From a virus: 22,580 nucleotides of DNA. The notes below the pieces were generated by a model. The model was given only the letters and a program-made list of their open reading frames with translations, was not told where the DNA came from and made no database searches. Location of the stretch: positions 1 to 22,580 of IMG/VR virus record IMGVR_UViG_3300008113_006297; one strand, 5' to 3'. Every line of letters starts with the position of its first letter. Positions within the stretch are counted from its first letter, which is position 1. The position numbers were made by a program, and so were the translations under genes. Below, piece after piece: positions 2,410 to 22,580 of the stretch.

Positions 2410-3169
2410 TTACTAATTTCCAACCTTTTAATCTTTGTTCTCTAAAATACTGATTCATTAATTGTTTGAAAGGTATTCCTTCAACACTTTTTTGATTACT
2501 TTCCCAAAGGGAATTAGCATCACCACCATAAGTTCCGCCTTTTATACTTCCCCACAATTCCATATCAGAACGAGGGTGTGGTGGTACATAGGTATTTATT
2601 CCAGCATACTTTTGCAACATATATGAAAAGTGCATATCTTCACCACAAGTATTATACTTTGGGTCAGGTTGTTCTCTCCACATATGAGATAACCATTCTT
2701 TCTTAAAGAACCAACTATGCCCAACTAAATCAACTTGCACTGTTTTATCATTATTACCTTGCTCAGGCCAACCAAAACGTAAGTAGTGTTCATAATAAGA
2801 TGAATGTTCTGCCGGAAGTGGAACTGGGTATAATAATCCAACCGTACCTAATAATCCTTCGTGTGTTTTCATTGTTTCCATACAATTTTCTAACCATCTA
2901 CGGCCAGGTATTGTATCATCATCAAAGATACATACATAAGGATTACGAGCCATAAATGCAAAAGCAAATCGTGCCCACACACCAAAGTTGTAGTTACAAT
3001 AAGCACCTGCTATTTCAGTACCAATATCGTAATTAATCAGGTCATTATCACCAGGATTGTTATACCAAAAAAGTATTTCATCCGGTTGTACTGATTGATT
3101 TTTTAGAGCTTCTAATTGCTCATTAAGATTATCTGCTCTTTTGTAACCATTTAATATAACACTTATCAT
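2402..3169 (-). CDS. GT-A fold glycosyltransferase, family 2-like
   Basis: The N terminus MISVILNGYKR with the strand-helix pattern that follows is the nucleotide-binding start of a GT-A fold. The metal-binding acidic motif is CIFDDDTIPG (80-89, D83-D85). A later TCGEDMHFSYMLQKYAG segment (about 174-190) supplies the 'ED' expected at the acceptor/catalytic site, as in GT2 and exostosin-like enzymes. It has 255 residues, with no membrane helix and no signal peptide, so it would act in the host cytoplasm. Its start shares an ATGA overlap (3166-3169) with the upstream transferase gene, implying translational coupling. Donor and acceptor are unknown. Confidence 0.85.
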   Translation of the reverse strand: MISVILNGYKRADNLNEQLEALKNQSVQPDEILFWYNNPGDNDLINYDIGTEIAGAYCNYNFGVWARFAFAFMARNPYVCIFDDDTIPGRRWLENCMETMKTHEGLLGTVGLLYPVPLPAEHSSYYEHYLRFGWPEQGNNDKTVQVDLVGHSWFFKKEWLSHMWREQPDPKYNTCGEDMHFSYMLQKYAGINTYVPPHPRSDMELWGSIKGGTYGGDANSLWESNQKSVEGIPFKQLMNQYFREQRLKGWKLVNE

Positions 3170-4152: not shown

Positions 4153-4778
4153 ATAGTTTCGTAATATGCATTTTGTTTTTCTTGCCTTTCAATTTGTTTA
4201 TGATGGTACAAACAAAATTGTTCTTCTTGTGGTAATACTGAAAGTGTATTATATCCAACGATTCTTTCATGCACCTTACCTTGCCATTCTATTTCAGATG
4301 TTCTTCTATAAAGACGTGTTTGATAATCTGGAAAATTAATCCATCCCTTTTCATTTACTTTCCATCCCCACTTTTGAATATGTTGTTGTGTCAATCCATT
4401 TACTGTGTTTACACGTGGTACGAAGAAAAGGTCTACATCTTTATTAAATTCTAATAAATCAGAAAGATTTTCAACTATATATTCTGTTGGCATTTCATCG
4501 GCATCAATTTGAAATATAAAAATACCATTGGCATGATTTTTTAAATTGTTTTTAAAAGATGCAAAATCACCGTTTAGAGGAAAAGAAATCACTCTAATAT
4601 TTTTGTGAAGCTGTGAAATTATTTTGAGATAATCAATTATTTGAGAGGTGGCCGATAATTCATCAAACTGAATTAGTATCTCATCTTCTTCCTTAATTTT
4701 TGGTTGTAAAAAATCAACTAAATTTGTTATTTCGTTAATTTCATTACAAACTGTAATTGCGTATGTAACATTTATCAT
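4149..4778 (-). CDS. Family 2 glycosyltransferase (WaaE/LgtF-like)
   Basis: This 209-residue GT2 protein starts with the nucleotide-binding strand MINVTYAITVCNE. It carries the DxD metal motif in FQIDADEMP (89-97, D92/D94) and the highly typical downstream signature DYQTRLYRR (151-159) plus EWQGKVHERI (164-173), as in WaaE/LgtF-type hexosyltransferases. The short length lacks the C-terminal extension of some bacterial relatives. It is the first gene of the carbohydrate run: the run restarts here after a 96-bp gap behind the protease gene, under its own promoter (4783-4813). The promoter's -7 box ends only 4 nt before this ATG, so the message may be leaderless. The substrate is unknown. Confidence 0.88.
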   Translation of the reverse strand: MINVTYAITVCNEINEITNLVDFLQPKIKEEDEILIQFDELSATSQIIDYLKIISQLHKNIRVISFPLNGDFASFKNNLKNHANGIFIFQIDADEMPTEYIVENLSDLLEFNKDVDLFFVPRVNTVNGLTQQHIQKWGWKVNEKGWINFPDYQTRLYRRTSEIEWQGKVHERIVGYNTLSVLPQEEQFCLYHHKQIERQEKQNAYYETI

Positions 4779-4782
4779 AATA

Positions 4783-4813
4783 CAAATATAAGATTTTTTT
4801 ATTTATTTACCAA
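4783..4813 (-). promoter_or_regulatory. Bacteroidetes-type promoter for the sugar-gene run
   Basis: On the minus strand TTTGG with TTG at 4813-4811 is followed, after exactly 20 bases, by TATATTTG (4790-4783), a perfect TAnnTTTG -7 box. The start codon at 4778-4776 follows after only TATT, so transcription should begin at or next to the ATG. The same grammar recurs at three other places in the window. Confidence 0.8.
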
Positions 4814-4826
4814 ATTTTATTGGTAA
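4807..4826. repeat. 7-bp inverted repeat overlapping the -33 element
   Basis: TTACCAA (4807-4813) and TTGGTAA (4820-4826) are perfect inverted arms around a 6-base loop. The left arm contains the -33 TTG of the promoter at 4783-4813. With no run of U after the stem on either strand it is a poor terminator; an operator or a chance AT-rich palindrome is more likely. Confidence 0.4.
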
Positions 4827-4874: not shown

Positions 4875-6473
4875 TTAAGAAACTTTAAATATAAAGCCAC
4901 CACTAAAACTTAAACCACCACCTATGCTACTGGCCTGTGATTTATTAAATTTATTAAACAAATATCTAGTCACGCCACCCCATAAACTTCTTCTATTTGT
5001 CCAATCATTATTATTTAAAGTTGCATATAAATCACCATTTGAATTACTAATCAAATATTGTTTTAATTCAGATGGTGTCATTTTTGGATTTATTTGTAAA
5101 ATAAGTGCTGCTACACCGGCAACTTGTGGAGATGCCATAGAAGTTCCACTTATATTTGTTTGTTTAAACGAAGAATTTTTAAAATAGTTACCAGTTGTAA
5201 ATTGTGTTGTCTGGGAACAAGCTCCCATAATAGCAGTTCCAGGTGCATAAATATCAACACCAGGTCCTGTTTCAGATGATATTGCTTTTTGGTCAGTATT
5301 AGCATCGTATGAAGCACTATCTGCATTTCCCACTTTTATTGCCCTAGTTGAATAAGGTGAAGAACCTCTATGGTAGTAGTTCGCACCACCAATGTTTCCA
5401 CCGGTTGCGGTAATGGTATTATCATAATCAGAACCACCGGCTACATCTATTTTAAATCCAAAGTTACCCGCTGCAATACAAACATGTATTCCTTCGGAAA
5501 TCATCTCATCAATATCAGTATCGGTTGATGAAACCCTAGTGTTTCCATAGTAATAAGTCCCATCAAAATTTTGAATATAACCATAATTAGTTTCTCTATT
5601 TGCAGCTATGGTTGCGGTTGTATTACTATAAGATGTACCTCTATATGTTAGTGAAGTAACTGCAGTAAAATAATGAACATATCCCCAACTCATATTAACT
5701 ACAGTTGGTCTTTTTGCTCCTGTTTTAGGGTCTACTGGTTTATTTCTATGCCAAAGTTTTATAGCATCAAATGCATCGGTTATAGATATACCCGTACCAC
5801 TATCTCCACTGCCTTCTAATCCGCTAAGTTTTTGAGAATATACTCTTGCTTTTTTAGCCCATCCAAAAAATTTACCAGCCACAGTTGATGCAACATGTGT
5901 ACCATGTCCATCAAAATCTCTATAATGATTTGCAGACTGTGTTCCACTTAATCCACTTTCGGTGTACCAATTTATTTGTTGTACTCTACTAACTCCAAAT
6001 TCGTCTTGAAATTCAGGATGGTCTACTTGCAATCCACTATCTTGAATTACAACATCTACACCATTTCCCGTCAATGAGTATTCATAAGAAGCGGTTGTAG
6101 ATGTTCCGGTACCATAACAATTAAAATCAAAATTAGAACGTATTAATCCCCAATTAGTATAATCGCCAGAATCTACAGTTGCTGGATTTTTTGTAAAATC
6201 AGTATTCTGAACCGCTCTTAAAACCATTTTCAAATCATCTCTATGGTCTGGTGGTATTTCTACGTCAAATACTCTTTCATCTAATTTAAGCTGTTCTGCT
6301 TCTTCCTCTGTTAGCAAATACCAACATTGACGAAGAGAGCCAGGTCTTTCGTTTGTAAATTCTACTTTACGATTTGGAATGTATAATTTACCACCATCGG
6401 TATCACTTTCTATATCATTCCAAAATTCATCGTAATCAATTCCCTCTTTTAAGATAACGTTGTATTCTCTCAT
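4875..6473 (-). CDS. Subtilisin-family (S8) serine protease with propeptide domain
   Basis: The catalytic triad is D145 (VVIQDSGLQVDH), H190 (DGHGTHVA) and S445 (SGTSMASPQVAG). The oxyanion asparagine is N337 (AAGNFG). Residues 1-75, with the segment WYLLTEEEAEQLKLDERVFD (51-70), resemble the inhibitor I9/propeptide fold that chaperones and inhibits subtilisins. There is no signal peptide, so the enzyme would act inside the infected cell or on the virion. The C terminus GGLSFSGGFIFKVS is glycine-rich and tail-protein-like. Its start overlaps the fibre gene by 38 bp in another frame, which suggests coupled expression and makes the fibre or another virion protein the natural candidate substrate (inference). 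All catalytic residues are present, so it should be active. Confidence 0.93.
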   Translation of the reverse strand: MREYNVILKEGIDYDEFWNDIESDTDGGKLYIPNRKVEFTNERPGSLRQCWYLLTEEEAEQLKLDERVFDVEIPPDHRDDLKMVLRAVQNTDFTKNPATVDSGDYTNWGLIRSNFDFNCYGTGTSTTASYEYSLTGNGVDVVIQDSGLQVDHPEFQDEFGVSRVQQINWYTESGLSGTQSANHYRDFDGHGTHVASTVAGKFFGWAKKARVYSQKLSGLEGSGDSGTGISITDAFDAIKLWHRNKPVDPKTGAKRPTVVNMSWGYVHYFTAVTSLTYRGTSYSNTTATIAANRETNYGYIQNFDGTYYYGNTRVSSTDTDIDEMISEGIHVCIAAGNFGFKIDVAGGSDYDNTITATGGNIGGANYYHRGSSPYSTRAIKVGNADSASYDANTDQKAISSETGPGVDIYAPGTAIMGACSQTTQFTTGNYFKNSSFKQTNISGTSMASPQVAGVAALILQINPKMTPSELKQYLISNSNGDLYATLNNNDWTNRRSLWGGVTRYLFNKFNKSQASSIGGGLSFSGGFIFKVS

Positions 6474-9261
6474 ACGATGTAATGTGAATAGATGAAGATA
6501 CTTCGGTTTTAGTTGATATTGGTTCGTATTTTAAACCAGCACTCACCATACCCATACTTCCACTATATGTTATTACACCATTAAAAGTTGTACCACTTAA
6601 ATTTAAAACTCCAGATGTACCAGAAGTACCAGATGCACCACCAGCTCCACCAACAGATGAACCAGATGTAAATTCAATCCAACTACCACTAATTCTACCC
6701 ATAAATTTATTAGTAGTAGTATTATAATATACATCACCATTTGCAGGTGCTAAACTACTAGTTTGTCCATCAGTAAAACTTGCCAATCTTAATGATGATG
6801 AAGTTATTACTACTGCATTTCCTGCATTTAAATTGATATTTGTTGATGAATATATTTCAGGTGTACCAGGAGAAGTTACGGTTATTGCAGATGCTGTTAT
6901 TGAACCACTAACTCTAAATGAACCAGTTACATATAAATCTCCATTTGCTGAATAATATGAACCCGTTTGTGCAAATACGCTACTTCCACCACCACCTTGA
7001 AATGCTACTCCATTTTGATATAATGAACCGCTGAAATAAATTGAACCAGTAACAATCATACCACCATCAACCCATATAGAACCCGTATGCACTATTCTAC
7101 CATCTTTGAATTGAGTTCTTCTTTGTCTATCTTTTATATAAATAGGTCCACTTAATGCCGTATTTGCTGAGCTACAATAGAAGATTGTTGAACCAGGAAC
7201 TGAACCACTTGTGTTATACGTTACAGTACCATTTGTTGCACCATTATTGTTTACACCAGTCACTCCCTGTCCAGTACCTGAGGTTACTGATGTTTTAATG
7301 TAGAATGGGTGCGATGCTGCTACTACGTTAAATACGATTGTATCACCATGATAAACCCAAATATCAACATCTTCGCCTCTTTCCAAAGTTGGGTCATTTG
7401 ATGGAGTAAATACATATCCACTATTACCATTATTTACCACACTCCAATCTCTAACCATTGATTGTGTTACAATGAAATCTTTGAATAAGCCCGATGCCGA
7501 TTGTACAAATCCTGCATCTAATATTTGTGCCGAACCTGTTATCCATCCATTATACGATGCTGATGAAAACGATGCACCATTACCACCTGTTAATGATACA
7601 ACAACGCCATTTGCACCCGATGGAGTAAGAATAACACTTCCACTAAAAGATATATCTCTTACAGCATAAACTGCAGTTATTCCTCCGTTACCATCTCTAA
7701 CACCAATTTCGGTTGTTGTACCAGAAGTACCCGAAGAACCACCCGAACCATTAGAACCTCCCGATGTACCAGAAGAACCCGATGTACCACTTACACCAGG
7801 AGAACCATTAGTACCAGAAGAACCTATTGCAGAAGTACCAGATGTACCGTTTGTACCTGCTAAGCTACTACCACTAGTACCACTCAAACCAGATGTTCCA
7901 GATGTTCCAGCAGTTGATGTTTGACCAGAAGTACCAGATGTGCCGGCAGTACCATCAGTACCACTTCCTCCGCCACCAGTCACATCTACTAATAAATTGC
8001 CACCACCTAAATCAGTTACACTAAAATCGGCAGTTAATTCTAAAGTATCAACTGACGTATATGTTGAAGCACCTCTTACAACACTTATTGTACTTCCACC
8101 ACCACCACCACTTAATGATGATGTTGCTATTTGACGTGTATTTTGATTAGTTGGTCCACCTACCCAAACATATCCTTCTCTTAAAGATGCACTCAAAGGA
8201 CCCGTTGTTGATAATCCAGCTGCACCAGAAACAATTCCTGATGCATTTACACCACCAACCATAAACGTTGAACCAGTAACTTGCAATGAACCACTTATGA
8301 TTGCAGAACCAGTATATGGGAAAGAACCTCCGCCACCGCCAGCTCCAAATCCTAATGCGGTAATTTGCGCTGCACCGGATACTAATCCTACAGCTTTTAG
8401 TGATGCAGTATATGCTTCTAATCCATTTACTTCACCCCTAATTGAACCGGTGAAAGTGTTTAAAGATGCAGTTGTCACATTTACCGATGCGGTATGTCTA
8501 TTTGTTGAACCACTAAAGAAATTTAAATTTGGAATACCAGAGCCTATTGAACTTGTAAACGCATTTAATGAACCCGTTGCAATTCCTATTTGAGCAAATT
8601 GATTATTATATGAAGATGTAAGATAGCTCATAAATTGAATATGAGCTTCAGTTGATGCCGAAAATGCGTTTAGTGATGCTGTTGTTTGTTGTATTCTTGG
8701 TACTAAATCAGCTCCTGCTAATGTACCATCTTGTCCAGATGTTCCACTTACACCGCTTGTGCCGGCGGTGCCGGTTGTGCCTGCAGTACCCGTTGTGCCT
8801 GCAGTACCAGATGAGCCTGCTGAGCCGTTAGTGCCATTGACACCACTTGTACCATTTACGCCACTCGTACCATTTACGCCACTTGTACCATTTACGCCAC
8901 TCGTACCATTCACTGCACTTGTTCCAGATGTACCAGAAGTTTGAATACTACCGGATACTAAACTCCATCCAATTGCACCATCCACCGGGTCATAAACAAC
9001 TACCTTATCGGTTGTGTTTTTAAAAGATATTGACGAGGATGTGAATTTTAAACTACCCGAAATTAAAGCACTACCTGTAAATTGTCCACTTAATGTTCCT
9101 TGTAATGTTGAAAGATTGGAAACGGATTGAGATACCGCCAAAAATGAACCAGTCATTAAAGCAGTAAATGAGCCTGATGTTTGTTCTAAAATATTCAGGT
9201 TGGCGTCCATTTCTGCTGCTGTAAGTGGACTGCCCTTTATAAGTCTTTGTGTAATTGCCAT
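6436..9261 (-). CDS. Collagen-like phage tail fibre / structural protein
   Basis: The N terminus MAITQRLIKGSPLTAAEMDANLNIL (1-25) matches the 'GSPLT..E.DAN' start common in T4-like phage fibre proteins. Then come Gly-X-Y triplets (about 110-181, mostly GTS, GVN, GTA, GTT), helical ASLNAF repeats (about 195-290), a second Gly-X-Y region (about 434-515), a cupredoxin-like domain (about 604-710), repeated 'TGS.xxSGS' beta segments, and NGDVYYNTTTNKFMGRISGSW (about 841-861), a familiar fibre motif. The protein is dominated by Gly, Ser and Thr, with no transmembrane segment. It probably forms a trimeric host-contact fibre. The very low complexity means internal domain limits are approximate. Six glycosyltransferase genes flank it at a distance. 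Confidence 0.88.
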   Translation of the reverse strand: MAITQRLIKGSPLTAAEMDANLNILEQTSGSFTALMTGSFLAVSQSVSNLSTLQGTLSGQFTGSALISGSLKFTSSSISFKNTTDKVVVYDPVDGAIGWSLVSGSIQTSGTSGTSAVNGTSGVNGTSGVNGTSGVNGTSGVNGTNGSAGSSGTAGTTGTAGTTGTAGTSGVSGTSGQDGTLAGADLVPRIQQTTASLNAFSASTEAHIQFMSYLTSSYNNQFAQIGIATGSLNAFTSSIGSGIPNLNFFSGSTNRHTASVNVTTASLNTFTGSIRGEVNGLEAYTASLKAVGLVSGAAQITALGFGAGGGGGSFPYTGSAIISGSLQVTGSTFMVGGVNASGIVSGAAGLSTTGPLSASLREGYVWVGGPTNQNTRQIATSSLSGGGGGSTISVVRGASTYTSVDTLELTADFSVTDLGGGNLLVDVTGGGGSGTDGTAGTSGTSGQTSTAGTSGTSGLSGTSGSSLAGTNGTSGTSAIGSSGTNGSPGVSGTSGSSGTSGGSNGSGGSSGTSGTTTEIGVRDGNGGITAVYAVRDISFSGSVILTPSGANGVVVSLTGGNGASFSSASYNGWITGSAQILDAGFVQSASGLFKDFIVTQSMVRDWSVVNNGNSGYVFTPSNDPTLERGEDVDIWVYHGDTIVFNVVAASHPFYIKTSVTSGTGQGVTGVNNNGATNGTVTYNTSGSVPGSTIFYCSSANTALSGPIYIKDRQRRTQFKDGRIVHTGSIWVDGGMIVTGSIYFSGSLYQNGVAFQGGGGSSVFAQTGSYYSANGDLYVTGSFRVSGSITASAITVTSPGTPEIYSSTNINLNAGNAVVITSSSLRLASFTDGQTSSLAPANGDVYYNTTTNKFMGRISGSWIEFTSGSSVGGAGGASGTSGTSGVLNLSGTTFNGVITYSGSMGMVSAGLKYEPISTKTEVSSSIHITSYERIQRYLKRGN
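7132..7452 (-). other. Cupredoxin-like domain inside the fibre
   Basis: Residues about 604-710 show the pattern YVFTPSNDPTLERGEDVDIWV, SHPFYIKT, GVTGVNNNGATNGTVTY and STIFYCSSANTALSGPIYI. This is the layout of the cupredoxin-like module found in T4-like marine phage fibres (rGd..F....HPF.I ... Y.C..H..M.G.I.I). The first His and the Cys are kept, but the 'H..M' ligand positions read as N/T and L, so copper binding is unlikely. Confidence 0.6.
7717..7962 (-). repeat. Second collagen-like Gly-X-Y region of the fibre
   Basis: This stretch encodes residues about 434-515, mostly GTS, GTA, GTN and GSS triplets with several phase breaks (for example GQTSTAG and SLAGTN). Proline is nearly absent. 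The phase breaks suggest decay or separate short triple-helical blocks. Confidence 0.7.
8756..8809 (-). repeat. Three 18-bp tandem repeats (GTAGTT codons)
   Basis: Units 8774-8791 and 8792-8809 differ only at their last base; 8756-8773 is a diverged third copy. Each encodes two Gly-X-Y triplets, so loss or gain of a unit keeps the fibre frame open. Confidence 0.75.
8831..8920 (-). repeat. Five 18-bp tandem repeats (GVNGTS codons)
   Basis: Units begin at 8831, 8849, 8867, 8885 and 8903. The three middle units differ only at the last base, alternating C, T, C, which gives a nested 36-bp period. The outer units are more diverged. The near-identity at DNA level indicates recent tandem duplication. 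Confidence 0.85.
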
Positions 9262-9918: not shown

Positions 9919-11226
9919 TTATACTTTATTTAATTTTGGTATCTGCATTTTTGAAGAATTTACCTTTGGCATATTAAACGGTACTAATTGAGGTGCTTTC
10001 TTTACATAAGTATCAAGTATTTGTGTAAATCTTTCATGCATTTTTTCTAAAGTAAAGTTTTTTAATGTGTTTTCTCTTAAACCTGCAGATTTTTCCAAAT
10101 ATGAATTATATTTGTTATAAACATCATAAATTTTATTTGCAGCATTTGAATAATTTACAGTAAACCATTGAGATTCTTTCATAATGAATTGGTCTGCTGC
10201 CGATTCATCAATTGGAGTGAGTGAACCTTCTAGTAGAACTGCATTTTCGGCGGGTAGGAAATCAACATGCCCACTCCACCCACTTACTATAATTGGTTTA
10301 CCTGTAAGAGTAAACTCAGCTAATGGTCTACCATACCCTTCACCTTTTGTAAATGATAACATAGCTTTTACTTTTGGATTGTGATAAAGATTACTCATAT
10401 CAGTTTCTTCTAAATCCCCATGTATCAAATATATTGAAGGACATTTATCTCCAAAAGGTTTCAGCACCTCATCAATTTTTCGGCGAGTTTCTTCTCTATC
10501 AATTACACTAAATCCGGCATGCGATGTTTTTACAACAAGCGCAGGTCTTTTTTCTTTTGGTAGATATTGGAATACCGTTGCAAACGTTTTTATTGCCATA
10601 CCAATATCTTTTCTATCTTGTCCCAAAGAACCCTTTAACCAATGTCCAACAATAAGAAAACAAAAATCTTCTTTTACATTGTCTAATATATCAATTTTTG
10701 AACCTGGTTTATGAAAACCTTTTGAAAATATTTCAGTATCAACACCTTCAAAAAGAACTTCAATTGGTTTATCAACTTTAAATTCTCCAACAATTTGTCC
10801 GGTTGATTGGTCTTTTTGTTGATACACAGTTCCGCCTATATTACCTTTTGTAAATTGCGAAGGAACAATAATTAAATCCATTTTGTTTGAACCTTCAATA
10901 AAATCTTTTGGTGCAATTGTGGTTTCAACTCCCGCAGTTATACCAATATTATAATGTCCTTTTGGTTCAAATTCGTTTGCCACCGAAACTTGCATAAACA
11001 CATCCGGCTTTTCACCAATCTCACCAATAACTCTTTCTAACATCCATCTTCCAAATTCATCCTGGTCACTCACCTGATTTTGTGGAGTGTTACCCCAACG
11101 AAGTGGGATAATTTTTATATCGTACTTATCCATCTTACGAAGTGATTTCATCAAATCTCTACAATGGTCACCATATCCACTTCTTGTAAAAATAGGTCCC
11201 TGAAATACTAACGTTGCTTTACTCAT
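9919..11226 (-). CDS. GT4-type (GT-B fold) glycosyltransferase
   Basis: The 435-residue protein has the GT-B two-domain layout. The N-terminal Rossmann segment ATLVFQGPIFTRSGYGDHCR contains the acceptor-side 'SGYG' turn. The linker VLFEGVDTEIFSKG (about 157-170) is the typical 'P.GVD...F' signature. The donor-site E-x7-E motif is E296-GYGRPLA-E304, followed by GKPIIVSGWSG. No membrane segment is visible. It lies 3 bp after the other GT4 gene (11230-12612) and 1 bp before the EF-hand protein gene, so the three form one operon leading toward the fibre. Donor and acceptor cannot be read from the sequence. Confidence 0.93.
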   Translation of the reverse strand: MSKATLVFQGPIFTRSGYGDHCRDLMKSLRKMDKYDIKIIPLRWGNTPQNQVSDQDEFGRWMLERVIGEIGEKPDVFMQVSVANEFEPKGHYNIGITAGVETTIAPKDFIEGSNKMDLIIVPSQFTKGNIGGTVYQQKDQSTGQIVGEFKVDKPIEVLFEGVDTEIFSKGFHKPGSKIDILDNVKEDFCFLIVGHWLKGSLGQDRKDIGMAIKTFATVFQYLPKEKRPALVVKTSHAGFSVIDREETRRKIDEVLKPFGDKCPSIYLIHGDLEETDMSNLYHNPKVKAMLSFTKGEGYGRPLAEFTLTGKPIIVSGWSGHVDFLPAENAVLLEGSLTPIDESAADQFIMKESQWFTVNYSNAANKIYDVYNKYNSYLEKSAGLRENTLKNFTLEKMHERFTQILDTYVKKAPQLVPFNMPKVNSSKMQIPKLNKV

Positions 11227-11229
11227 AAC

Positions 11230-12612
11230 TTATTTAATTTTGAATACATCAAATCTTTTTCTTGGTTTCCAATTTTGGAATGTTGACTCAATACCATCAA
11301 TAAGTGTCTGGCACATATTGGTATGATTCAATCCAGCTTCATTTATAAAATGCTCTCTACCTTTTAATGCATTTTGTTTTCTTTGTTCTTTTGGAGTATT
11401 ATACATTTTTTCAATAGCTTCCGCTACATCATGCAAATCAACTCTATCATCCCAAATGTAAGGTGTAGGTACTGAACCTGCCAATGCCAATGCTCTACTC
11501 CATACAGGAATTGCCCAAGGGCCAGGTTCTGCTTTCCCTTCCCACTTTCTCCATTCATGCAAAGAACCTATCTTAATATAATCTTCAGCTACTAATACAT
11601 TACCCTCTACTTTAAATCCACATTGGTCTTGCAATCCACCGGTTACGTTTACAATAATTGGAGTACCAGCCATTACCGATTCTGCAGTTGCTAATCCGAA
11701 TCCTTCGTTGTTAGCAATGTTAATTGTACAATCTGCGATATTATAATTCCAATTTAATTCATGTTGTAATCTTCTCTTTTCTGAAAACTTAATATTACAA
11801 TCAGGTGCTACAGCTTCTATAACTGCCGGAAGGTCAGTTCCATTATCATCCACAGGCTGTGTATGCATTAATAACAAACACTTATCTGCTTTTTCTTTAC
11901 CAATCTTTTCACAAAACAATTTAAAAGCGTAGATTACATCGGCCGGCTGTTTTCTTCTGATGTTACGATTGCTCCAATAAAGTACAAACTCATAATCTTT
12001 ACCGCCTAAAATTTCATTACGATATTCAGTAGGAACATCCGTTGGTTTGTATATATCAGTATTAATACCATGTGGTACATAACTAACTTGCCAAGGTTGT
12101 TTTGGTATCCAAGTTGGTTTATCAGTTCTTTGACCAATTCTACTGATAATACCATAGGTTTGACGAGATATGCAACCTATCCAATCACAACTTTCATAGA
12201 AGTTACGATTGTACATTGGGTCTGGCAAATCATCCCAAATTGCATAAAACAATAAAGGAATATTTTGTCTTATTTCATGCTCTATATCATATAACCAAGT
12301 CCAATAGCGTGGGTCAGTAAAGTGTAGGATAGCATCTGGCTTTTCCGCATTAATTAATTGACGAATCAAATCGGCATTACCATATCCATTCCAAGGAAGT
12401 ATTTTTACACTAGCATCAGCTATTCCATAATTTTTTTGAATATCTTCACTTACATCCAAAACCCTACCTTGCTCAGGATGATTAATAGCTGCCCCCACCT
12501 GAAACCAATCGTATTTATGAACTGTCCCTAATACTAATTCTTTAGACATTGTAGCGATACCGCTCGCCATTCTTAAATCATCTGAAAGTAACAATATTTT
12601 TTTCTTTGCCAT
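11230..12612 (-). CDS. GT4-type (GT-B fold) glycosyltransferase
   Basis: The 460-residue protein starts KKILLLSDDLRMASGIATMS, the nucleotide-fold beginning with a GT4-like 'SG' turn. It has the linker YVPHGINTDIYKP (178-190) and the donor-binding E-x7-E motif E303-GFGLATA-E311, followed by GTPIIVNVTGG. All core positions of an active retaining GT4 enzyme are present. It is followed after 3 bp by the second GT4 gene; the two are similar in plan but clearly diverged. Upstream, 8 bp separate it from the small ribbon-helix-helix-like gene. Substrates are unknown; given the fibre downstream, a virion glycan or host surface-type glycan are both possible. Confidence 0.93.
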   Translation of the reverse strand: MAKKKILLLSDDLRMASGIATMSKELVLGTVHKYDWFQVGAAINHPEQGRVLDVSEDIQKNYGIADASVKILPWNGYGNADLIRQLINAEKPDAILHFTDPRYWTWLYDIEHEIRQNIPLLFYAIWDDLPDPMYNRNFYESCDWIGCISRQTYGIISRIGQRTDKPTWIPKQPWQVSYVPHGINTDIYKPTDVPTEYRNEILGGKDYEFVLYWSNRNIRRKQPADVIYAFKLFCEKIGKEKADKCLLLMHTQPVDDNGTDLPAVIEAVAPDCNIKFSEKRRLQHELNWNYNIADCTINIANNEGFGLATAESVMAGTPIIVNVTGGLQDQCGFKVEGNVLVAEDYIKIGSLHEWRKWEGKAEPGPWAIPVWSRALALAGSVPTPYIWDDRVDLHDVAEAIEKMYNTPKEQRKQNALKGREHFINEAGLNHTNMCQTLIDGIESTFQNWKPRKRFDVFKIK

Positions 12613-13780: not shown

Positions 13781-14230
13781 TTAAACTTTAAGTTTCAATT
13801 TAGTAATTAACTTCGGGTCAGTACCATACGCTTCGGCAATTCGTTTAATTTCCTCCCTGCCGATAGTACTTTCATAAAGTATGTCCAAATACTCCGATGC
13901 TTCTTTTTGAGATACTAAAAACCATTTGGCAATCAATTCCAAAATCCAATCTTCGTAATCCCTTACCGATTTACCTTTCATATAACGAAGATAACTTTTT
14001 CCTTTTGGTATAATACCAATAAGTGCTTTGTAGACAGCTTTTGGTGGTGCCTCTTGAATATACGGTTGTATTTCTGCTACCATCTCAATCCAATCAGGAT
14101 TCATAGACATGTAGCGAATGATTAACCAATTACTCCAAGTCTTTTTATCAGCATCATCTAATTTGTCCCAATACTTTGGATCCTGGTCTTTTGTAATTGC
14201 ATTGATATGGTCAAATAATCCTTTAGCCAT
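13781..14230 (-). CDS. 62: Clamp-loader small subunit (T4 gp62-like)
   Basis: The 149-residue protein resembles T4 gp62. The segment ALIGIIPKGKSYLRYMKGK matches the gp62 'AAVPRGKRYGKWAK' region, and LIAKWFLVSQKEASEYLDIL matches 'LLAKRYQVNTNDAINYKSIL'. gp62 is the single adaptor subunit that joins four gp44 ATPases to load the sliding clamp. It is shorter than T4 gp62 (187 residues). The neighbours agree: gp44 lies one small gene upstream, and gp43 and gp45 are nearby. It starts one base after the zinc-ribbon gene stop. Confidence 0.82.
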   Translation of the reverse strand: MAKGLFDHINAITKDQDPKYWDKLDDADKKTWSNWLIIRYMSMNPDWIEMVAEIQPYIQEAPPKAVYKALIGIIPKGKSYLRYMKGKSVRDYEDWILELIAKWFLVSQKEASEYLDILYESTIGREEIKRIAEAYGTDPKLITKLKLKV

Positions 14231-14541: not shown

Positions 14542-15483
14542 TTAAATAATGTTTATAATTTGAATCATTGTTGCCGCTGCTACAATTTCTTTATCAATAG
14601 CTACAGCGGATTTAGCTACTGCATCACCTAATACTAAAATTACATTAGATGTGTTTTCTGCCGCATAATCATCTACTTTATCATAAAGGAGAGTAAATAG
14701 GTCAGTAAAATCAGTTGTCTTTGCATCTATAATAGTTTGCCTGATTTTCATATATTTGTTTCTCTTATCATCATTTGATTTAAGAATTTCTAATACTTTA
14801 AGTTTGTAATCGTTATCTAAAAGATTCTGAACATCTAATTGTAATTTACCTTTTAGAGAGTTTAATTGACAAGTATTAATAATTTTACGAATATCCGGAT
14901 AAGATGAATCAATAATTGGAACTAAATCTTTCGGGTCAAACTCTATACCTTCTGCCTTCAAAATCTTACTCATTTGAATAGCAACATCTTTTTTAGTTGG
15001 TGGTGTAATTTGGAAAGTTTGACAACGGCTTTGAATTGGTTCAATAATTTTTTCAATATAATTACACGTTAGAATAAAACGGCAATGCCTACTAAACGTT
15101 TCCATTAAATTACGAAGAATTGCCTGTGCGTTTGGAGTCATATAATCAAACTCATCTAGTATAATAATTTTATACTTTTTAAACCCAATAGATGATGCAA
15201 AGTTTTTAACTTTTGTTCTTACCGTTTCCACGTTATTCTCATCCGATGCATTAAGAACCATATAATCACACTCAATAGAGTTTACTATTAATTTAGCAAG
15301 TGTAGTTTTACCAGTACCGGCTTTTCCAAAGAAAAGTAGATGTGGTACATCTTCACTTTCAATATATCCAGCAACTTTATTTTTAAGATGCTCATTTCCT
15401 ACATAATCATCTAACTTTGCTGGTCTATATTTTTCTACCCAAAGTGAGTGATTTGTTTTTTCTTCTTGTGTAAATTGAAACAT
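14542..15483 (-). CDS. 44: Clamp-loader ATPase subunit (T4 gp44, RFC-like)
   Basis: An AAA+ ATPase of 313 residues that opens the sliding clamp and places it on primer-template DNA. Visible motifs: the RFC box LWVEKYRPAKLDDYVG (14-29), Walker A GKAGTGKTT (53-61), Walker B IIILDEFD (106-113), sensor 1 TCNY (139-142) and the arginine-finger SRC motif (152-154). The C-terminal helical part has the usual collar-domain length. The gene follows the dUTPase gene after 11 bp and precedes the zinc-ribbon and gp62-like genes, so both loader subunits are co-transcribed. Confidence 0.97.
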   Translation of the reverse strand: MFQFTQEEKTNHSLWVEKYRPAKLDDYVGNEHLKNKVAGYIESEDVPHLLFFGKAGTGKTTLAKLIVNSIECDYMVLNASDENNVETVRTKVKNFASSIGFKKYKIIILDEFDYMTPNAQAILRNLMETFSRHCRFILTCNYIEKIIEPIQSRCQTFQITPPTKKDVAIQMSKILKAEGIEFDPKDLVPIIDSSYPDIRKIINTCQLNSLKGKLQLDVQNLLDNDYKLKVLEILKSNDDKRNKYMKIRQTIIDAKTTDFTDLFTLLYDKVDDYAAENTSNVILVLGDAVAKSAVAIDKEIVAAATMIQIINII

Positions 15484-16323: not shown

Positions 16324-16353
16324 CAAATATACGAAAAAAAGTTTAGAATTCAA
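16324..16353 (-). promoter_or_regulatory. Bacteroidetes-type promoter for the dut/clamp-loader run
   Basis: On the minus strand TTG (16353-16351) is followed after 19 bases by TATATTTG (16331-16324), a perfect -7 box preceded by CG. The -33 element lies inside the end of the polymerase gene. About 15 nt of leader separates the predicted start of transcription from the ATG at 16305. Confidence 0.75.
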
Positions 16354-18895
16354 AAAACTTTTTTGCGTTTTGGGAATCAACCGAAGCCATCTCCCATTTA
16401 AGTGCTCCATAGAAGTCACCCAATTTATTTTCTAGTTCTGCTTTATAGATTTCTTCTCTATCAATGTATGTAGTAATAAAGTCCAATATCTCTTTCGGGT
16501 CATTGTAATCTTTGAACGCTAGAGTATCAATTCCCAATGGGTTTTGTTTTAGATATACCCACTTTACTTTTTCACCATCTCTAATCGGTTCGTGCTTAAA
16601 CGGACACTCAAAGAATTTTAGTAATCGGTTGTATGCTATTCCGGCTTTCACGTGAGCAGGTGTTCCTTTCTCAAAGTTAGCAATTGCCAATCCACTATCC
16701 TTTCTCCACTTTCCATTATCATACTTACTCAATTCTTTGATAGCTCCACCTTTTGCGATTTTATTAATAGGAAGATTAGGTAAGTTCTTTTTGAATTCTA
16801 ATAGGTCAGTATTAATTTCTTCGTTACTCTTACCCATTAGAATATTCTTCAACATCTTAGCCATAAAGTCCTGAAATGCTTTTGGGAATGAACTTCTTAC
16901 TACATCTAAACCTTTTACGTCCAACTTATCGCAAGGGATACCATTCTTCAAAATCATCCATTGTGCATATCTTTTCTTAGCTACCCAAAATCCTGCCTTA
17001 CTAATATACTCTTTCTTAATCTCAAAACGGTGTTTCTCTTTAGGGATACAAAAGAATCTCTCCGCCAACATATCATAGAATCGGTTAAGGAATGATTGAG
17101 TTTCTTCTGCAACCGTATTCACTTCTTGTGCCATCCTTGTCTGGTCAAAAGTTTTGTATTCAGGAAAACGATGCTTAACCAAAGGTTCTGCCATCATATA
17201 GATTGAATCGGTATCAATATAAACATTATAATCCTCTTTTGTTCCTAACTCTTTCCAATACTTTAGATTTGCCATTTCAGCAGTTTTCTTAATTACGGTT
17301 TGACCGGTAATTGTAACTGCCTCTGCATTATCAATATCATAAAATCTAAATGCAACAAGTCCTAACACACCATACATTGAGTTCAAAAGAATTTTCTGAA
17401 CCAACTGTCTCTTACCATAGAACTCATACAATTCAGTATTACCTTCTTCACCATACTTCTTTTCCAACTTTCGGAACTCAACCCTTTGTTTGAACCACGT
17501 ATCCAAAATATCTGCAATAAGACCTGGTTTCTTTTGTGTATAAAGAACGCCATTAGCCGCAATACCCAATTCATTATCCCTAATCAATTCGGAAAGTTCT
17601 TGTCTATTGTATGTAAATTGTTTTGTTTTACCATTAATAACAAATTGCCTATCTTCACCCCTAACCCACGCATCAGGATCCCAATTCTCAACCTTACCAA
17701 CTTTTGTTTCAGGTGAGATATTAAGTGTCATAATGATTGATGGATATAGAGATGTTAAGTCCAAGTCATAAATCCAATCATACTTTCCAACAATAGGTTC
17801 TTTTACATACGCACCAATGAACTTTTCCTCACCCGCTTCGGTTTGTTCTGCAAGTTTATCTTTGTGGTTCTTTGGTTTGTTCGGTGCTACCAATCCTTTC
17901 TTTTTGAGATAAGCCAAACACGCTCCTTCCAAATACTTTGATGAAAAAATATAATCTTCATAAGGCGTAAAGCCAGAGTGACAAATAGCTCTACTCAATT
18001 CAATGAACTGAAGTTTCGTATCCATTGCCACTACCAGCTCAACGTCAGTAATATTATACTCAATGAATTTCTCTAAATCGTTTTCAAAGAGGTCATCCAA
18101 ACTTCCTTCATATTCAACCTTACCTCTACCTAATTCTTTTGTAGCAATGTGGTTAAGAGTATATGAACTTTCTAAACCGAAGTTGTATCTTTTATACAAT
18201 CCAATATAGTCCATAATACTCACACCCGCAATACTATAACGATTACGATATGGTGACCAGTATGTTTTACCAATAGATGAAAGACGATTTGCTTGGGTTT
18301 CACCCATAATATTTTTAATACGATTGTAAAGATATGGAACGTCAAAGAAATCAATATTCCATCCTGTCCAGATTGTTGCGTTTACGCTTTCAACGTAGGT
18401 AATATATGCATTCAATAGTTCTCTTTCACTTTTGTAGATATGAACATGTACATCTTTACCATCTTTCTGAAATGCTTTACCTTTTACTTTGCCTTTCTTA
18501 TCTACAACGAATACGTGATATTCTTTTGTAGCATCATCATGCGCCGCAATTGAAGTGATTTCATTATCTGCCTTCTCAATATTTGGAAGACCGGTATGCA
18601 TCTCAACCTCAATATCAAATGTTAATACAATATGTCCTTTTGATGGAGTATCATCTTCGTATAGGTCAACTAATACTCTGGTTGTTTCAGGTACATCACT
18701 CTCAAACAATTCTTCTCCATCTTCTTTATCCCACTTATAAATCTTTTCCAAACGGTCTCCATGCATTGAAACATATTGTCCATTTGGGTCTTTACGATAT
18801 GCATACTTTTTATATGGGAATGTACGATACCCTATCGTATCATCCCAAAGATGTATTAAGTTCCTCTGCCTCTCTAAAAATATATTCTGATACAT
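16343..18895 (-). CDS. 43: Family B DNA polymerase (T4 gp43-like)
   Basis: The replicative polymerase with 3'-5' proofreading, 850 residues (T4: 898). Exonuclease motifs: TFDIEVEM (D94/E96), TGWNIDFFDVPYL (D185) and YNITD (Y280/D284). Polymerase motifs: DLTSLYPSI (D379), KILLNSMYG (K501, N505, Y508) and YIDTDSIY (D561/D563). The wording of these motifs is close to T4 gp43, including NISPET after motif A. The last residues AKKFFEF form a hydrophobic tail like the clamp-binding C terminus of gp43. The start overlaps the stop of the methyltransferase-like gene as TAATG. No intein or split is seen; the reading frame is continuous. Confidence 0.98.
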   Translation of the reverse strand: MYQNIFLERQRNLIHLWDDTIGYRTFPYKKYAYRKDPNGQYVSMHGDRLEKIYKWDKEDGEELFESDVPETTRVLVDLYEDDTPSKGHIVLTFDIEVEMHTGLPNIEKADNEITSIAAHDDATKEYHVFVVDKKGKVKGKAFQKDGKDVHVHIYKSERELLNAYITYVESVNATIWTGWNIDFFDVPYLYNRIKNIMGETQANRLSSIGKTYWSPYRNRYSIAGVSIMDYIGLYKRYNFGLESSYTLNHIATKELGRGKVEYEGSLDDLFENDLEKFIEYNITDVELVVAMDTKLQFIELSRAICHSGFTPYEDYIFSSKYLEGACLAYLKKKGLVAPNKPKNHKDKLAEQTEAGEEKFIGAYVKEPIVGKYDWIYDLDLTSLYPSIIMTLNISPETKVGKVENWDPDAWVRGEDRQFVINGKTKQFTYNRQELSELIRDNELGIAANGVLYTQKKPGLIADILDTWFKQRVEFRKLEKKYGEEGNTELYEFYGKRQLVQKILLNSMYGVLGLVAFRFYDIDNAEAVTITGQTVIKKTAEMANLKYWKELGTKEDYNVYIDTDSIYMMAEPLVKHRFPEYKTFDQTRMAQEVNTVAEETQSFLNRFYDMLAERFFCIPKEKHRFEIKKEYISKAGFWVAKKRYAQWMILKNGIPCDKLDVKGLDVVRSSFPKAFQDFMAKMLKNILMGKSNEEINTDLLEFKKNLPNLPINKIAKGGAIKELSKYDNGKWRKDSGLAIANFEKGTPAHVKAGIAYNRLLKFFECPFKHEPIRDGEKVKWVYLKQNPLGIDTLAFKDYNDPKEILDFITTYIDREEIYKAELENKLGDFYGALKWEMASVDSQNAKKFFEF

Positions 18896-20466
18896 TATGG
18901 TTTATAAAAAATAAAAATTGGTTCGTACTTATAAAATTGTCCTTCAATCTGCATAGAATTCTTTGCTTTAGATAAATCCATTCCTGTCATCGGACTCATA
19001 GTCATTCTGATTTTACCTTTGTGTTCACATCCTAATTGTGTTAGGATATCAATACTATCTTGCTCTAATGGATAAAATTTATCAGGTCCAACTTTGATAT
19101 CTGCGATATTCCAACAAATGTATCTATCGTTTCGTAGATATTCAAAAATTGTTGTAAGAGTTGGTTTTAAGAAACCATCTCTCCAACTTTCATAATTACC
19201 AAACTTCTTAAAAGATTGCGAATCATCATCGGAATATCTTTCTCTATCAAAGTATGGTGGTGAAGTAAATGCGAAATCTAACTTACCTTTATACTTTTGA
19301 AATCTCGGGTCATCTGCAATAACTTCAGAACCCGTTGTAAAAAGTTCATATGTATTTGCATGTCCCCAAAATGGATTAGCTGCACCAGGTACTTTATTGT
19401 TAAAGAATTCAGCAAGATACTCATAACGAGTCTTACCGATTTCTGCAATATAGTTTTCAGTATTTGGGTCATTACCGATGTAGTGGATATTTCTATCATC
19501 TACACTTAATGCTCCCAATATCCTTCCACCCCAACCAGCTGATGGGTCATAAATGTTAATTACATCTTGCTCTTTGATATGTTGAGTAAACCTCTGATAC
19601 AAATACTTTGCAGTAAGTGGTGGGAAGTTTACAACCGCCTGTGTACCCATACCAATACGAAATGCAGCAGTTGCTTCAGGAAATATTCTCTGCCCTAATG
19701 GATAGATTTTAATCTGAATTGGTTGTTTAGGAACATCAACTAAATTATCAATATTCTCACCCCAATCCGCAGTTTTAAGTGAAGATATATTTTCGTATTT
19801 CAATATACCAGCTTTGTAAAGGTCTTTAACTTCTTGTGCAGTAATTGGTGGTGATGGAACTTTACTATCTGCCTGAGATAGGCAAAACCCATATCCACTT
19901 TTATTATCACCCGCTACCCACTTTTCAATCCACTCTTTACCACTTTGTATATGCGAATTATGAAATTCAGGATTGTCCAGATGTAATGTTTTAGAAAAAC
20001 GATACATACCATCCTGCCTCGTCAATCTTCTCATTTGTTTGATAAACTCTGGCAAATAGGTATCATCCGCAAATACATCATAGATGGATGGTTTCGGTTT
20101 ATCATATGCCGAACCACCAATACCTGTCTTATACATTGCAGGGAAGAACTGATTGACGGGTGTAGCGAATTTATTAAAGTTAAAGATGACTTCGTTTCCG
20201 TCATCATCTTTTTCTTCAAACTCATTTACTTTGTAAGTTTGTAGTTTAGAGAACTGCTCAATCATTTCTGATTCATCAACACCAATTCTAGGTGGTGCTC
20301 CAGTCTCATTCCACTTCCTTACTGCAAGTTCTCTAAAAAATGCCACCCACTTTTCAAAGTCAGCGAATGGCATTTTGAGAACTTCTTCGTATAATAAGTT
20401 TACTTCAGGTTCGTATAACCAATCATTCTTTTCGTAGAAATACTTTTTAGAATAATTGAAACTCAT
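18895..20466 (-). CDS. DNA methyltransferase-like protein, large copy (SAGWG/TSPPY)
   Basis: The 523-residue protein has an S-adenosylmethionine-binding motif YDPSAGWGGR (306-315) and a catalytic motif DFAFTSPPYFDRERYSDDDS (397-416). TSPPY is the motif IV form of amino-methyltransferases that make N4-methylcytosine or N6-methyladenine. The first 300 residues are an unrecognised extension that might recognise DNA or act as a separate domain. The C terminus ends EPIFIFYKP. It shares both motifs, and the Y-S-x-D-D-x-Q-S continuation, with the gene at 21250-22464, so the two are paralogues. It is coupled by TAATG overlaps to gp45 before it and gp43 after it. No restriction enzyme is adjacent. Confidence 0.82.
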   Translation of the reverse strand: MSFNYSKKYFYEKNDWLYEPEVNLLYEEVLKMPFADFEKWVAFFRELAVRKWNETGAPPRIGVDESEMIEQFSKLQTYKVNEFEEKDDDGNEVIFNFNKFATPVNQFFPAMYKTGIGGSAYDKPKPSIYDVFADDTYLPEFIKQMRRLTRQDGMYRFSKTLHLDNPEFHNSHIQSGKEWIEKWVAGDNKSGYGFCLSQADSKVPSPPITAQEVKDLYKAGILKYENISSLKTADWGENIDNLVDVPKQPIQIKIYPLGQRIFPEATAAFRIGMGTQAVVNFPPLTAKYLYQRFTQHIKEQDVINIYDPSAGWGGRILGALSVDDRNIHYIGNDPNTENYIAEIGKTRYEYLAEFFNNKVPGAANPFWGHANTYELFTTGSEVIADDPRFQKYKGKLDFAFTSPPYFDRERYSDDDSQSFKKFGNYESWRDGFLKPTLTTIFEYLRNDRYICWNIADIKVGPDKFYPLEQDSIDILTQLGCEHKGKIRMTMSPMTGMDLSKAKNSMQIEGQFYKYEPIFIFYKP

Positions 20467-21185
20467 TAGGCTGTTAATTGTTGTTCAACTAAATAATAAC
20501 TAGCAGTAAAATCATCAATTTTAAATTGAATATGTGCCAATCCTTGTGTAGAAACTTTAAGAACAGCCGATGTTGCCTCTTTATTCGCAGTTAAGATTTC
20601 TTTCAAATATTTTGCAGAAAAAGAAATTGGTTTAACATCGCCACTAAAGTTTTTATCAACAATAAATGTGATACGATTTGAATTAACGTTAGAATAACCC
20701 AATACAAGTTTCAATTCTTTCTTTTGTGAAAGGATAGTAAACGTATCAGATTCGGATAATGCGTTCTTACCTTTGATGAACTTATCAATAAGAGAACCAT
20801 CAAAATTGATATCAATATCAAAATCAGGAAGTTTTTTCAAATCTGGAACATTTGGAATAACTGCCAAATCAGCCAAATTATATTCCGGTTGTGCATTTCC
20901 ACTTTTTAGTGTAAGATTAGTTGCCCTTCCTTCAATTTGTTGGATATCTAATTCAATATCCTCATCCAATACAGGAAGATATTTTGAAATTTGAGATGTG
21001 GTGTAAATACCTAAATCAGAAAATTTTACACCAAAATTATCTAATTGTATTTCGCCTAATACCGTCTTATCATCGGAAATAAAACGAGTTGATAATTTGT
21101 TATCTTCTGCTTTCCATGCAACTGATTCTACTAATCCACCCAAACTATACTTTTGGATAAATCTTGTCAATTTTACTTTGTTCAT
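20466..21185 (-). CDS. 45: Sliding clamp (T4 gp45-like)
   Basis: The 239-residue protein has the length and strand-helix rhythm of T4 gp45 (228 residues). Its C-terminal third, VKPISFSAKYLKEILTANKEATSAVLKVSTQGLAHIQF, matches the clamp pattern of a strand, the helix, then paired strands, as in PCNA and gp45. It would form a trimeric ring that holds gp43 on DNA and, in T4, also activates late transcription. Synteny with gp43, gp44 and the gp62-like gene supports the call. It has its own promoter (21217-21247) and an A-rich, Shine-Dalgarno-free leader of about 30 nt ending AACATAAACAAA before the ATG. Its stop overlaps the next start as TAATG. Confidence 0.88.
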   Translation of the reverse strand: MNKVKLTRFIQKYSLGGLVESVAWKAEDNKLSTRFISDDKTVLGEIQLDNFGVKFSDLGIYTTSQISKYLPVLDEDIELDIQQIEGRATNLTLKSGNAQPEYNLADLAVIPNVPDLKKLPDFDIDINFDGSLIDKFIKGKNALSESDTFTILSQKKELKLVLGYSNVNSNRITFIVDKNFSGDVKPISFSAKYLKEILTANKEATSAVLKVSTQGLAHIQFKIDDFTASYYLVEQQLTA

Positions 21186-21216
21186 TTTGTTTATGTTTTA
21201 ATTTTAATTGTGAATA

Positions 21217-21247
21217 CAAATATACGATAATTTATTGAAATTACCAA
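21217..21247 (-). promoter_or_regulatory. Bacteroidetes-type promoter for the clamp gene
   Basis: On the minus strand TTTGGTAA (TTG at 21247-21245) is followed after exactly 20 bases by TATATTTG (21224-21217). Both boxes are perfect, and the upstream box is the same TTTGGTAA seen at 4783-4813. It likely drives gp45, the large methyltransferase-like gene and gp43. Confidence 0.82.
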
Positions 21248-21249
21248 AT

Positions 21250-22464
21250 CTATTTTTCCCATATCCAGATGGGTTCTCCAAAGGCGTGGTTTTTAGTTTC
21301 TTCGGCTTTTTCCTTCAATTCATCCGAATAATACTCCGATACAGCCATCCCAGCACCCCCACTATTGGGTCTTTTTGTCATTTCCATACCAATACACCCT
21401 TTATAAAGTAACCCCCTAGATTGAAGAAAATCGTTCATAGAATTAACTATGTCCACATACCCCTTATCTGGTGCCGAAAATACATCTGCAATATTGATTG
21501 CCAATATACCACCTTTCTTTAAGGTTGGTATAATTTTCTCCAAAGTTGTATGAAAGAAGCCTGTGTTCCAATCATCAAACTTTTTATATCTAATCCAACT
21601 TTGAGTATCATCAAATGAGTATCTTTCAGTATTGAAATACGGTGGTGATGTAAAGATTGTATCAAAGAAGTTTTCATACTCCGAATAATCTACATCTTCT
21701 GCTGCCGCTTGTAACATCTTTGCATCTTTTTCTTCTTCAAAGAATGTTGTATGTTTTTTATAGAACTCTATTTGTTTTTGATAGTTAGGATGATTATTAC
21801 TATTTGGGTCAATACCTAAATAAAACTTTGTTGTTTCACCGGCAAAAAATCCAGCTAAACGGTCACCCCAACCTGCTGAAAAATCCATTACATTCTTACT
21901 TTGAAATTTATCATAGAATGCTTTTGCTATTACCGGCTTAAATTGTGATGCTACATACTTTCTTAATGTTGTTGCCATTTTCAATGTTTCCATATTAACA
22001 TCCAACAATAATTTATCTAAAGTAAAATATGCTCTTACAATTGTTTTAATACCTTCCACCGTTTGCCACGTTTTCCAACCTGATGGAGTTCTTACCCAAT
22101 CAACTTTCCAACGATTTTCAATATGGAAAGGATTAGATGCATTGTTACCTACATTTGTTCTTCTAAAATAATATTCAGAACCATCGTAGGTTAGTGGATA
22201 CTTTGATACCCTCTCATTACGTGGAAACCATTTACCTTCAACCAAAATATCAGGCCACCAAGTACCTTTTAATTTTTTATACGCATCCAAAGTTTCTTCT
22301 TCGGTTATATTTGGAATTGGCGGTGGATATGTGTGAAGGCACTCTGAAAGTTCATTTATGATTTCTTCTTTTGTATAAGTTTGGAGAATAGTTTGCCACT
22401 CGTCTTTTTCAATACGAATATACGGCTCCATGCCATAAAACTTTTTGAAGTATTCTTTTATCAT
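21250..22464 (-). CDS. DNA methyltransferase-like protein, second copy
   Basis: I place the start at the ATG 22464-22462, giving 404 residues, because it forms an ATGA overlap with the stop of the preceding gene. A TTG six codons upstream would also stay in frame but is less likely. Motifs: VMDFSAGWGDR (192-202) for S-adenosylmethionine and TIFTSPPYFNTERYSFDDTQ (269-288) for catalysis, followed by a strand GGILAINIADVF as in this fold. The C terminus reads SGGAGMAVSEYYSDEL and ends GEPIWIWEK. The N-terminal 180 residues are Trp/Tyr-rich (VRTPSGWKTWQTVEG) and may bind DNA. Both neighbours in the window are related proteins. Its target base and site cannot be read. Confidence 0.83.
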   Translation of the reverse strand: MIKEYFKKFYGMEPYIRIEKDEWQTILQTYTKEEIINELSECLHTYPPPIPNITEEETLDAYKKLKGTWWPDILVEGKWFPRNERVSKYPLTYDGSEYYFRRTNVGNNASNPFHIENRWKVDWVRTPSGWKTWQTVEGIKTIVRAYFTLDKLLLDVNMETLKMATTLRKYVASQFKPVIAKAFYDKFQSKNVMDFSAGWGDRLAGFFAGETTKFYLGIDPNSNNHPNYQKQIEFYKKHTTFFEEEKDAKMLQAAAEDVDYSEYENFFDTIFTSPPYFNTERYSFDDTQSWIRYKKFDDWNTGFFHTTLEKIIPTLKKGGILAINIADVFSAPDKGYVDIVNSMNDFLQSRGLLYKGCIGMEMTKRPNSGGAGMAVSEYYSDELKEKAEETKNHAFGEPIWIWEK

Positions 22465-22580
22465 AGTTTTTTCCAAATCCAAATAGGTTCACAAAATGTT
22501 TTATCACCCGCCTCTGCTGCTTTTGCCAATGCTTCATCGGTGTATCTATCTTCATCACCTTCAATAATAGCACCTGCCCC
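22461..22580 (-). CDS. C-terminal end of a third methyltransferase-like gene, cut by the window edge
   Basis: The last 39 codons of a gene entering from beyond the right edge. They read GAGAIIEGDEDRYTDEALA and end in CEPIWIWKKL. This aligns well with the C terminus of the next gene (GAGMAVSEYYSDELKEKAEE, then GEPIWIWEK), including the unusual EPIWIW. The TGA stop at 22463-22461 overlaps the ATG of the downstream copy by 4 bp. The catalytic motifs would lie outside the window. Confidence 0.78.
   Translation of the reverse strand, partial: GAGAIIEGDEDRYTDEALAKAAEAGDKTFCEPIWIWKKL

Follow-up and report, generated by a model that had tools for sequence, protein, structure and literature searches.

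Candidate DNA amino-methyltransferases in the replication cluster of an uncultured clade of T4-like phages

In phages, DNA methyltransferases are generally regarded as accessory genes that counter restriction. The four types described here, which we label A, B, C and D, belong to a known kind of enzyme in a new arrangement. Among described enzymes, the PF01555/type II amino-methyltransferases (TTHA0409, PDB 2zie) resemble A to D in that motif IV (TSPPY) and the next strand-helix block align; however, the methyltransferases investigated here fall below the Pfam cut-off, place a motif I of the WGxR form ahead of motif IV, possess their own N-terminal domains, and have no restriction partner that we could find. 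The phage DNA methyltransferases of PHROG 498 and 12517 likewise have their core in common with A to D, but all four types are far off these profiles and sit in a replisome cluster. A separate DNA methyltransferase, located among the structural genes of genome G001 (233157-234476; L282:13157-14476), does match PHROG 498 (E 1.6e-62), and also 12517. The fold of A is matched over about 380-440 alignment columns by methyltransferases from Pithovirus LCPAC/LCDPAC, from Satyrvirus and from Salmon gill poxvirus (TM 0.56-0.72, 16-23% identity); these proteins are from viruses of eukaryotes, and their function is known by annotation only.

Other phages modify their DNA as well. The T4 alpha-glucosyltransferase, which co-purifies with gp45, is a phage DNA modifier that binds the clamp (PMC13216743); it acts on hydroxymethylcytosine by glucosylation, whereas clamp contact of the methyltransferases described here is a guess. 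In the CmoA/CmoX/CmoY pathway, too, an asparagine-synthetase homologue lies next to a DNA enzyme of a phage that depends on SAM (PMC12783734). Flavobacterium phage immuto has an annotated 7-deazaguanine pathway (DpdA, QueC/D/E, FolE), but it differs in using PolA, in having no matching clamp or PolB, and in possessing none of these methyltransferases. A search with the DpdA of immuto found none in 16 contigs of the clade, although distant DpdA types could escape this query; FolE is present in two of the clade contigs.

The window we analysed, a 22,580-base IMG/VR fragment, carries all the genes discussed on its minus strand, in the order C (fragment)–A–clamp–B–PolB:

22461..22580, minus strand: methyltransferase C, C-terminal 39 codons and stop, running off the window; ATGA overlap with A at 22461-22464
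21250..22464, minus strand: methyltransferase A, 404 aa, with an N-terminal domain (about 1-170) and a class I methyltransferase domain
21859..21885, minus strand: motif I of A, DFSAGWGDR, residues 194-202, SAM binding
21634..21651, minus strand: motif IV of A, TSPPYF, residues 272-277, catalytic
21217..21248, minus strand: promoter-like element of Bacteroidota type, TTTG-N20-TATATTTG, in the gap between A and the clamp (pattern scan)
20466..21185, minus strand: sliding clamp (gp45-like), 239 aa (profile matches)
18895..20466, minus strand: methyltransferase B, 523 aa, with an N-terminal region (about 1-275) and a class I methyltransferase core
19522..19548, minus strand: motif I of B, DPSAGWGGR, residues 307-315
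19249..19266, minus strand: motif IV of B, TSPPYF, residues 401-406
16343..18895, minus strand: family B DNA polymerase (gp43-like), 850 aa
15495..15959, minus strand: dUTPase, a downstream replication/nucleotide gene
14542..15483, minus strand: clamp loader large subunit (gp44-like)
13781..14230, minus strand: clamp loader small subunit (gp62-like)

In the direction of transcription, PolB is followed by a 123-aa protein annotated without a function, the dUTPase, the clamp loader subunits, and a PD-(D/E)XK exonuclease-like protein. The order methyltransferase-methyltransferase-gp45-methyltransferase-gp43 given in a preliminary description of this stretch is present as described, and its identification of the clamp was right: the only match of the clamp profile in the PDB is the RB69 clamp 1b77 (E 0.064), and the PHROG 223 processivity factor is matched by seven of 16 clamps. 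The ATGA and TAATG couplings it reported exist between C and A (ATGA), clamp and B, and B and polymerase (both TAATG), but not between A and the clamp, which are 64 nt apart. This gap and the promoter-like element within it divide the genes into two coupled blocks, one ending with C and A, the other starting with clamp, B and polymerase. The form TTTG-N20-TATATTTG is that of a Bacteroidota promoter. The pattern TTTG-N17-23-TAnnTTTG occurs 14 times in the window, compared to 1.95 expected, with sites that include 21217-21248, 16324-16354 and 4783-4814, and a looser form starting with TTG lies ahead of seven of the eight clamps that follow A. A generic sigma-70 scan remained at chance level, and the Bacteroidota-type pattern alone is informative; Rfam and tRNA scans of the window returned nothing.

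Two full genes and a fragment with shared motifs had been noted in this region, and all three are found. A carries TSPPYFNTERYSFDDTQS besides DFSAGWGDR, B carries TSPPYFDRERYSDDDSQS besides DPSAGWGGR, and the 39-aa fragment, which contains GAGAIIEGDEDRYTDEAL...EPIWIWKKL, is the end of the full gene C. Because the window is an IMG/VR fragment, the complete C was taken from relatives; it is 409 aa long and aligns with A over its whole length (410 columns) at 49% identity (E 4.5e-147), and the kinship thus extends far beyond the last 40 residues to which it might have been confined. The description of the three genes as related applies to A and C in their entirety, but to B through the catalytic core only: A and B are 32% identical over 212 aa (E 7e-26; profile-profile E 4e-36), this common part being the C-terminal core, and the first ~275 residues of B have no detectable kinship to A or C. 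The same core is found in a fourth type, D (351 aa), which adjoins DnaB. Residues D194, S196, G198, W199, G200 and R202 of motif I and S273-F277 (SPPYF) of motif IV (numbering of A) are retained in all 62 A-D representatives; the class I core is intact in each of the four types and includes an SPPYF motif IV.

In the phylogeny of the core, A is the sister group of C, and the B proteins form one group (support 100 each); D clusters with a Paludibacteraceae MAG protein and with a protein of a Vibrio phage that carries the annotation N4-cytosine methylase. A and C are accordingly the product of a duplication, whereas B and D are older lineages that were brought together. Over the N-terminal 170 residues A and C are 38% identical, compared with 60% over the catalytic core, a pattern expected if the N-terminal parts set the targets, as we infer they do; since these parts diverge most, several DNA specificities are plausible. 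The genes themselves evolve slowly: between the window and its relative L007, dN/dS is 0.041 for A, 0.049 for B, 0.063 for the polymerase and 0.18 for the clamp. A and B are under strong purifying selection, unlike fast-changing accessory genes. In one genome (G012:C1:99123-100287) A is split over two frames, possibly as a pseudogene or through sequencing error.

The amino-methyltransferase identity given in the preliminary description agrees with profile and structure comparisons. PF01555 (N6_N4_Mtase) is the best family in 37 of 40 A/C members and 13 of 18 B members (E <= 0.01), although A and B of the window, at 25.8 and 17.8 bits, stay below the curated cut-off of 26.7; PADLOC type II methyltransferases and the PHROG 498 DNA methyltransferase were also matched. 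The only relevant match of the methyltransferase profiles to PDB sequences was 2zie (E 0.51). The model of A is a confident class I methyltransferase (pLDDT 91.9, pTM 0.89), and the class I Rossmann methyltransferase fold is seen in the predicted models, that of B being less confident (82.2). All 62 representatives have the (S/D/N)PPY motif IV of amino-methyltransferases, in the form SPPYF; A does not have the beta-class order, in which motif IV precedes motif I, its motif I being at 194-202 and its motif IV at 272-277. Near full length, A matches predicted viral structures (BFVD) with TM 0.67-0.76; the top match (TM 0.76) is an unnamed 375-aa protein, and several of the Satyrvirus and Pithovirus matches are annotated as cytosine-N4-specific DNA methyltransferase. 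Another fold match to A is the uncharacterised Salmon gill poxvirus protein A0A0H4Y1D9 (TM about 0.69).

These comparisons bear on the possibility that the genes encode RNA or protein methyltransferases that came to lie in the replication cluster by chance. The PDB fold matches are generic class I methyltransferases that include small-molecule enzymes and tRNA and rRNA methyltransferases (Trm11, NSUN and MnmM among them), and for the models the PDB fold search could not tell DNA from RNA substrates. Nevertheless, PF01555 is the best family for most members, and the named viral proteins that match A near full length are mostly annotated as DNA methyltransferases, which makes an RNA or protein substrate very unlikely. 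The PF01555 and viral structure matches make amino-methylation of DNA the best reading, with N4-cytosine the better guess for its position. We consider N4-cytosine methylation of DNA, as predicted here, likely, the SPPY form in the sequence being a suggestive sign only. A pithovirus methyltransferase-like protein is expressed, yet the viral DNA is without methylated sites (PMC7253447).

An AsnB-like amidotransferase and a GNAT lie directly upstream of C in L007 (L007:6813-8784) and in many relatives, with the order AsnB-like>GNAT>C>A and a 10-nt overlap between GNAT and C in 18 of 26 cases. The three genes could be a hypermodification operon that builds a larger base modification, as the CmoX/CmoY pathway does; in phage S-B43 an asparagine-synthetase homologue completes the 5-carboxymethylcytosine hypermodification (PMC12783734). 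However, CmoA (TIGR00740) was found in none of 19 records, with positive controls, and C has SPPYF in place of the SPPC required of CmoX. Both observations make carboxymethyl hypermodification unlikely; in addition, some relatives lack the AsnB-like gene or have it far away, and we regard an operon of this kind as highly improbable.

The phages that carry these genes probably belong near the Far-T4 phages. Judged by its major capsid protein, the L007 genome has its nearest cultured relative in immuto (52% identity); the capsid protein of Microcystis phage Mel-JY01 also reaches 52% and that of Rhodothermus phage RM378 40%. The polymerase of the window is 48% identical to its Mel-JY01 counterpart. 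Far-T4 phages have been linked to Bacteroidota hosts (PMC7198788). Given this placement, the promoter pattern, and the presence of a C gene on a Flavobacteriales MAG contig, Bacteroidota hosts are likely, and we regard the clade as a large, common and uncultured group of aquatic T4-like phages that probably infect Bacteroidota. In Mel-JY01 the clamp adjoins PolB too, but these methyltransferases are absent. That phage, a relative without them, encodes an S-adenosylmethionine synthase beside its clamp loader (L269:20788-21990). We rejected this synthase as a common feature of the clade, in which a single interrupted copy was found.

The linkage of the methyltransferases to the clamp and other replisome genes recurs across the clade. 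The 274-kb contig of L007 has the order recA > 5'-exonuclease > DnaB > ribonucleotide reductase > AsnB-like > GNAT > C > A > clamp > B > pol. Counted over distinct protein sequences, which the searches draw preferentially from close relatives so that cases are not fully independent, the clamp is followed by B in 67 cases (45 with a 1-nt overlap) and by C in 23 (21 with a 1-nt overlap), and C is followed by A in 71. In clusters formed at 82% identity, the clamp is the immediate upstream neighbour in 10 of 15 B and six of 27 C clusters, and dnaB immediately precedes D in three of six. At least one such methyltransferase is present in each of the 16 clade contigs examined (67-276 kb), with 1-5 matches per contig. 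The arrangement is therefore not peculiar to the window, a question that the preliminary description had left to a search beside gp45 in other phages. It also remarked that such an arrangement is not standard for T4. This is correct for T4 itself, which to our knowledge does not have it; in the uncultured clade it is the norm. Among the open-licence literature we found no paper that describes such an arrangement.

The location of the methyltransferases inside the DNA-copying cluster suggests that the phage may mark its own DNA while copying it. As far as gene content and order can tell, the term replisome-coupled holds for the gene order, the shared operon, the stop/start overlap and the persistence across the clade; gene order, however, can persist without protein contact. 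One could assume that the order is simply inherited, with shared expression and no functional tie between methyltransferases and replisome. This would agree with the changing context of A, which adjoins the clamp, the polymerase, D or recA, and with the situation in T4, where expression, through promoter strength, and not clamp binding is the main reason for the dominance of alpha-glucosylation (PMC13216743). On the other hand, an identical 1-nt overlap joins the clamp gene to two diverged types, to B in some lineages and to C in others, and a third type, D, is coupled to dnaB. Mere inheritance of the order is a serious possibility, though one to which we give less than even weight. At the other extreme, B, and C where it follows the clamp, might bind the clamp and methylate the DNA leaving the fork, with two methyltransferase types using the same clamp and D tied to the helicase gene. 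We consider such binding doubtful; if true, it would be a phage counterpart of clamp-guided maintenance methylation.

The preliminary description had also suggested protection of the genome from host restriction, and as a general statement this fails. GATC occurs 25 times in G001 versus 960 expected, and 21 times versus 584 expected under a null model of synonymous codon shuffling. Its observed/expected ratio is 0.00-0.19 in 14 of 15 clade genomes (window, L271-L418), 0.03 in the window and 0.86 in immuto, and TCGA, CTAG, CATG, ACGT, GGTACC, CTATAG and others are likewise avoided in many clade genomes. Immuto, with its 7-deazaguanine DNA pathway, shows hardly any palindrome avoidance. Mel-JY01 avoids GATC and CTAG too (32 kb tested) without having the methyltransferases, and the avoidance is hence independent of them. 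By eye, the presence or absence of A has no consistent link to the avoidance of single 4-mer palindromes; we therefore propose no target motif. That palindromes are avoided despite the enzymes indicates that restriction pressure is not relieved in general. Any protection by the methyltransferases must be limited to motifs without such avoidance, or else the enzymes have a different purpose.

A broad camouflage against restriction, in which the set of enzymes grew in an arms race and masks many host restriction sites, would explain the several paralogues per genome, and phage methyltransferases commonly act against restriction (reviewed in PMC7824862). However, with GATC almost absent from 14 of 15 genomes, many other palindromes avoided, the synonymous-codon null in agreement, and the enzymes evolving slower than the clamp as core genes that are not patchily exchanged, this explanation is unlikely. 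Among the neighbours scanned there was no restriction enzyme family: the nearby PD-(D/E)XK protein is exonuclease-like rather than a cognate restriction enzyme, and such a gene is annotated also in immuto, which is without these methyltransferases.

The absence of a restriction enzyme family from these neighbours fits a methylation that serves the phage internally, either in a regulatory role that times replication or packaging, or as a self-mark that spares phage DNA from the phage's own host-degrading nucleases. The conservation of the core, the purifying selection and the co-expression with the replisome are also consistent with such an invariant role, but we identified no partner nuclease or reader, and this explanation is possible rather than probable.

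The reading that we favour, and hold with some reserve to be the probable one, is that C, A and B are orphan SAM-dependent DNA amino-methyltransferases of the replication cluster that methylate new phage DNA. The methyltransferases would be made together with clamp and polymerase, B through the stop/start overlap from the clamp gene; newly copied phage DNA would be methylated at a small number of constant motifs, with targets that differ between the enzymes according to their diverged N-terminal parts, and the methylation would label it as phage DNA for a subset of host nucleases and perhaps also for nucleases of the phage itself. That purifying selection on these genes is strong argues for an invariable core function at a small number of motifs. 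In this best explanation, the substrate (DNA), the chemistry (N4-cytosine), the timing and the purpose are what we infer. In these GATC-purging genomes, the methyltransferases are core genes of the replication cluster and more conserved than the clamp. Whether phage methylation is tied to the fork, and which purpose it has if not general protection, thereby become testable questions. Many unnamed genes gain an annotation, and through the predicted fold they are linked to proteins from giant viruses and from a poxvirus of fish, all of them unstudied.

The remainder of the window contains a subtilisin-like serine protease (4875-6473; Peptidase_S8, E 4e-34), which adjoins a tail-fibre-like gene, and a 941-aa fibre-like protein with collagen-like GTSGTSG repeats (6436-9261). 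Glycosyltransferase-like genes and a UDP-GlcNAc 2-epimerase (1402-4778 and 9919-12612) are located between structural and replication genes, a placement that is the same in immuto and Mel-JY01.
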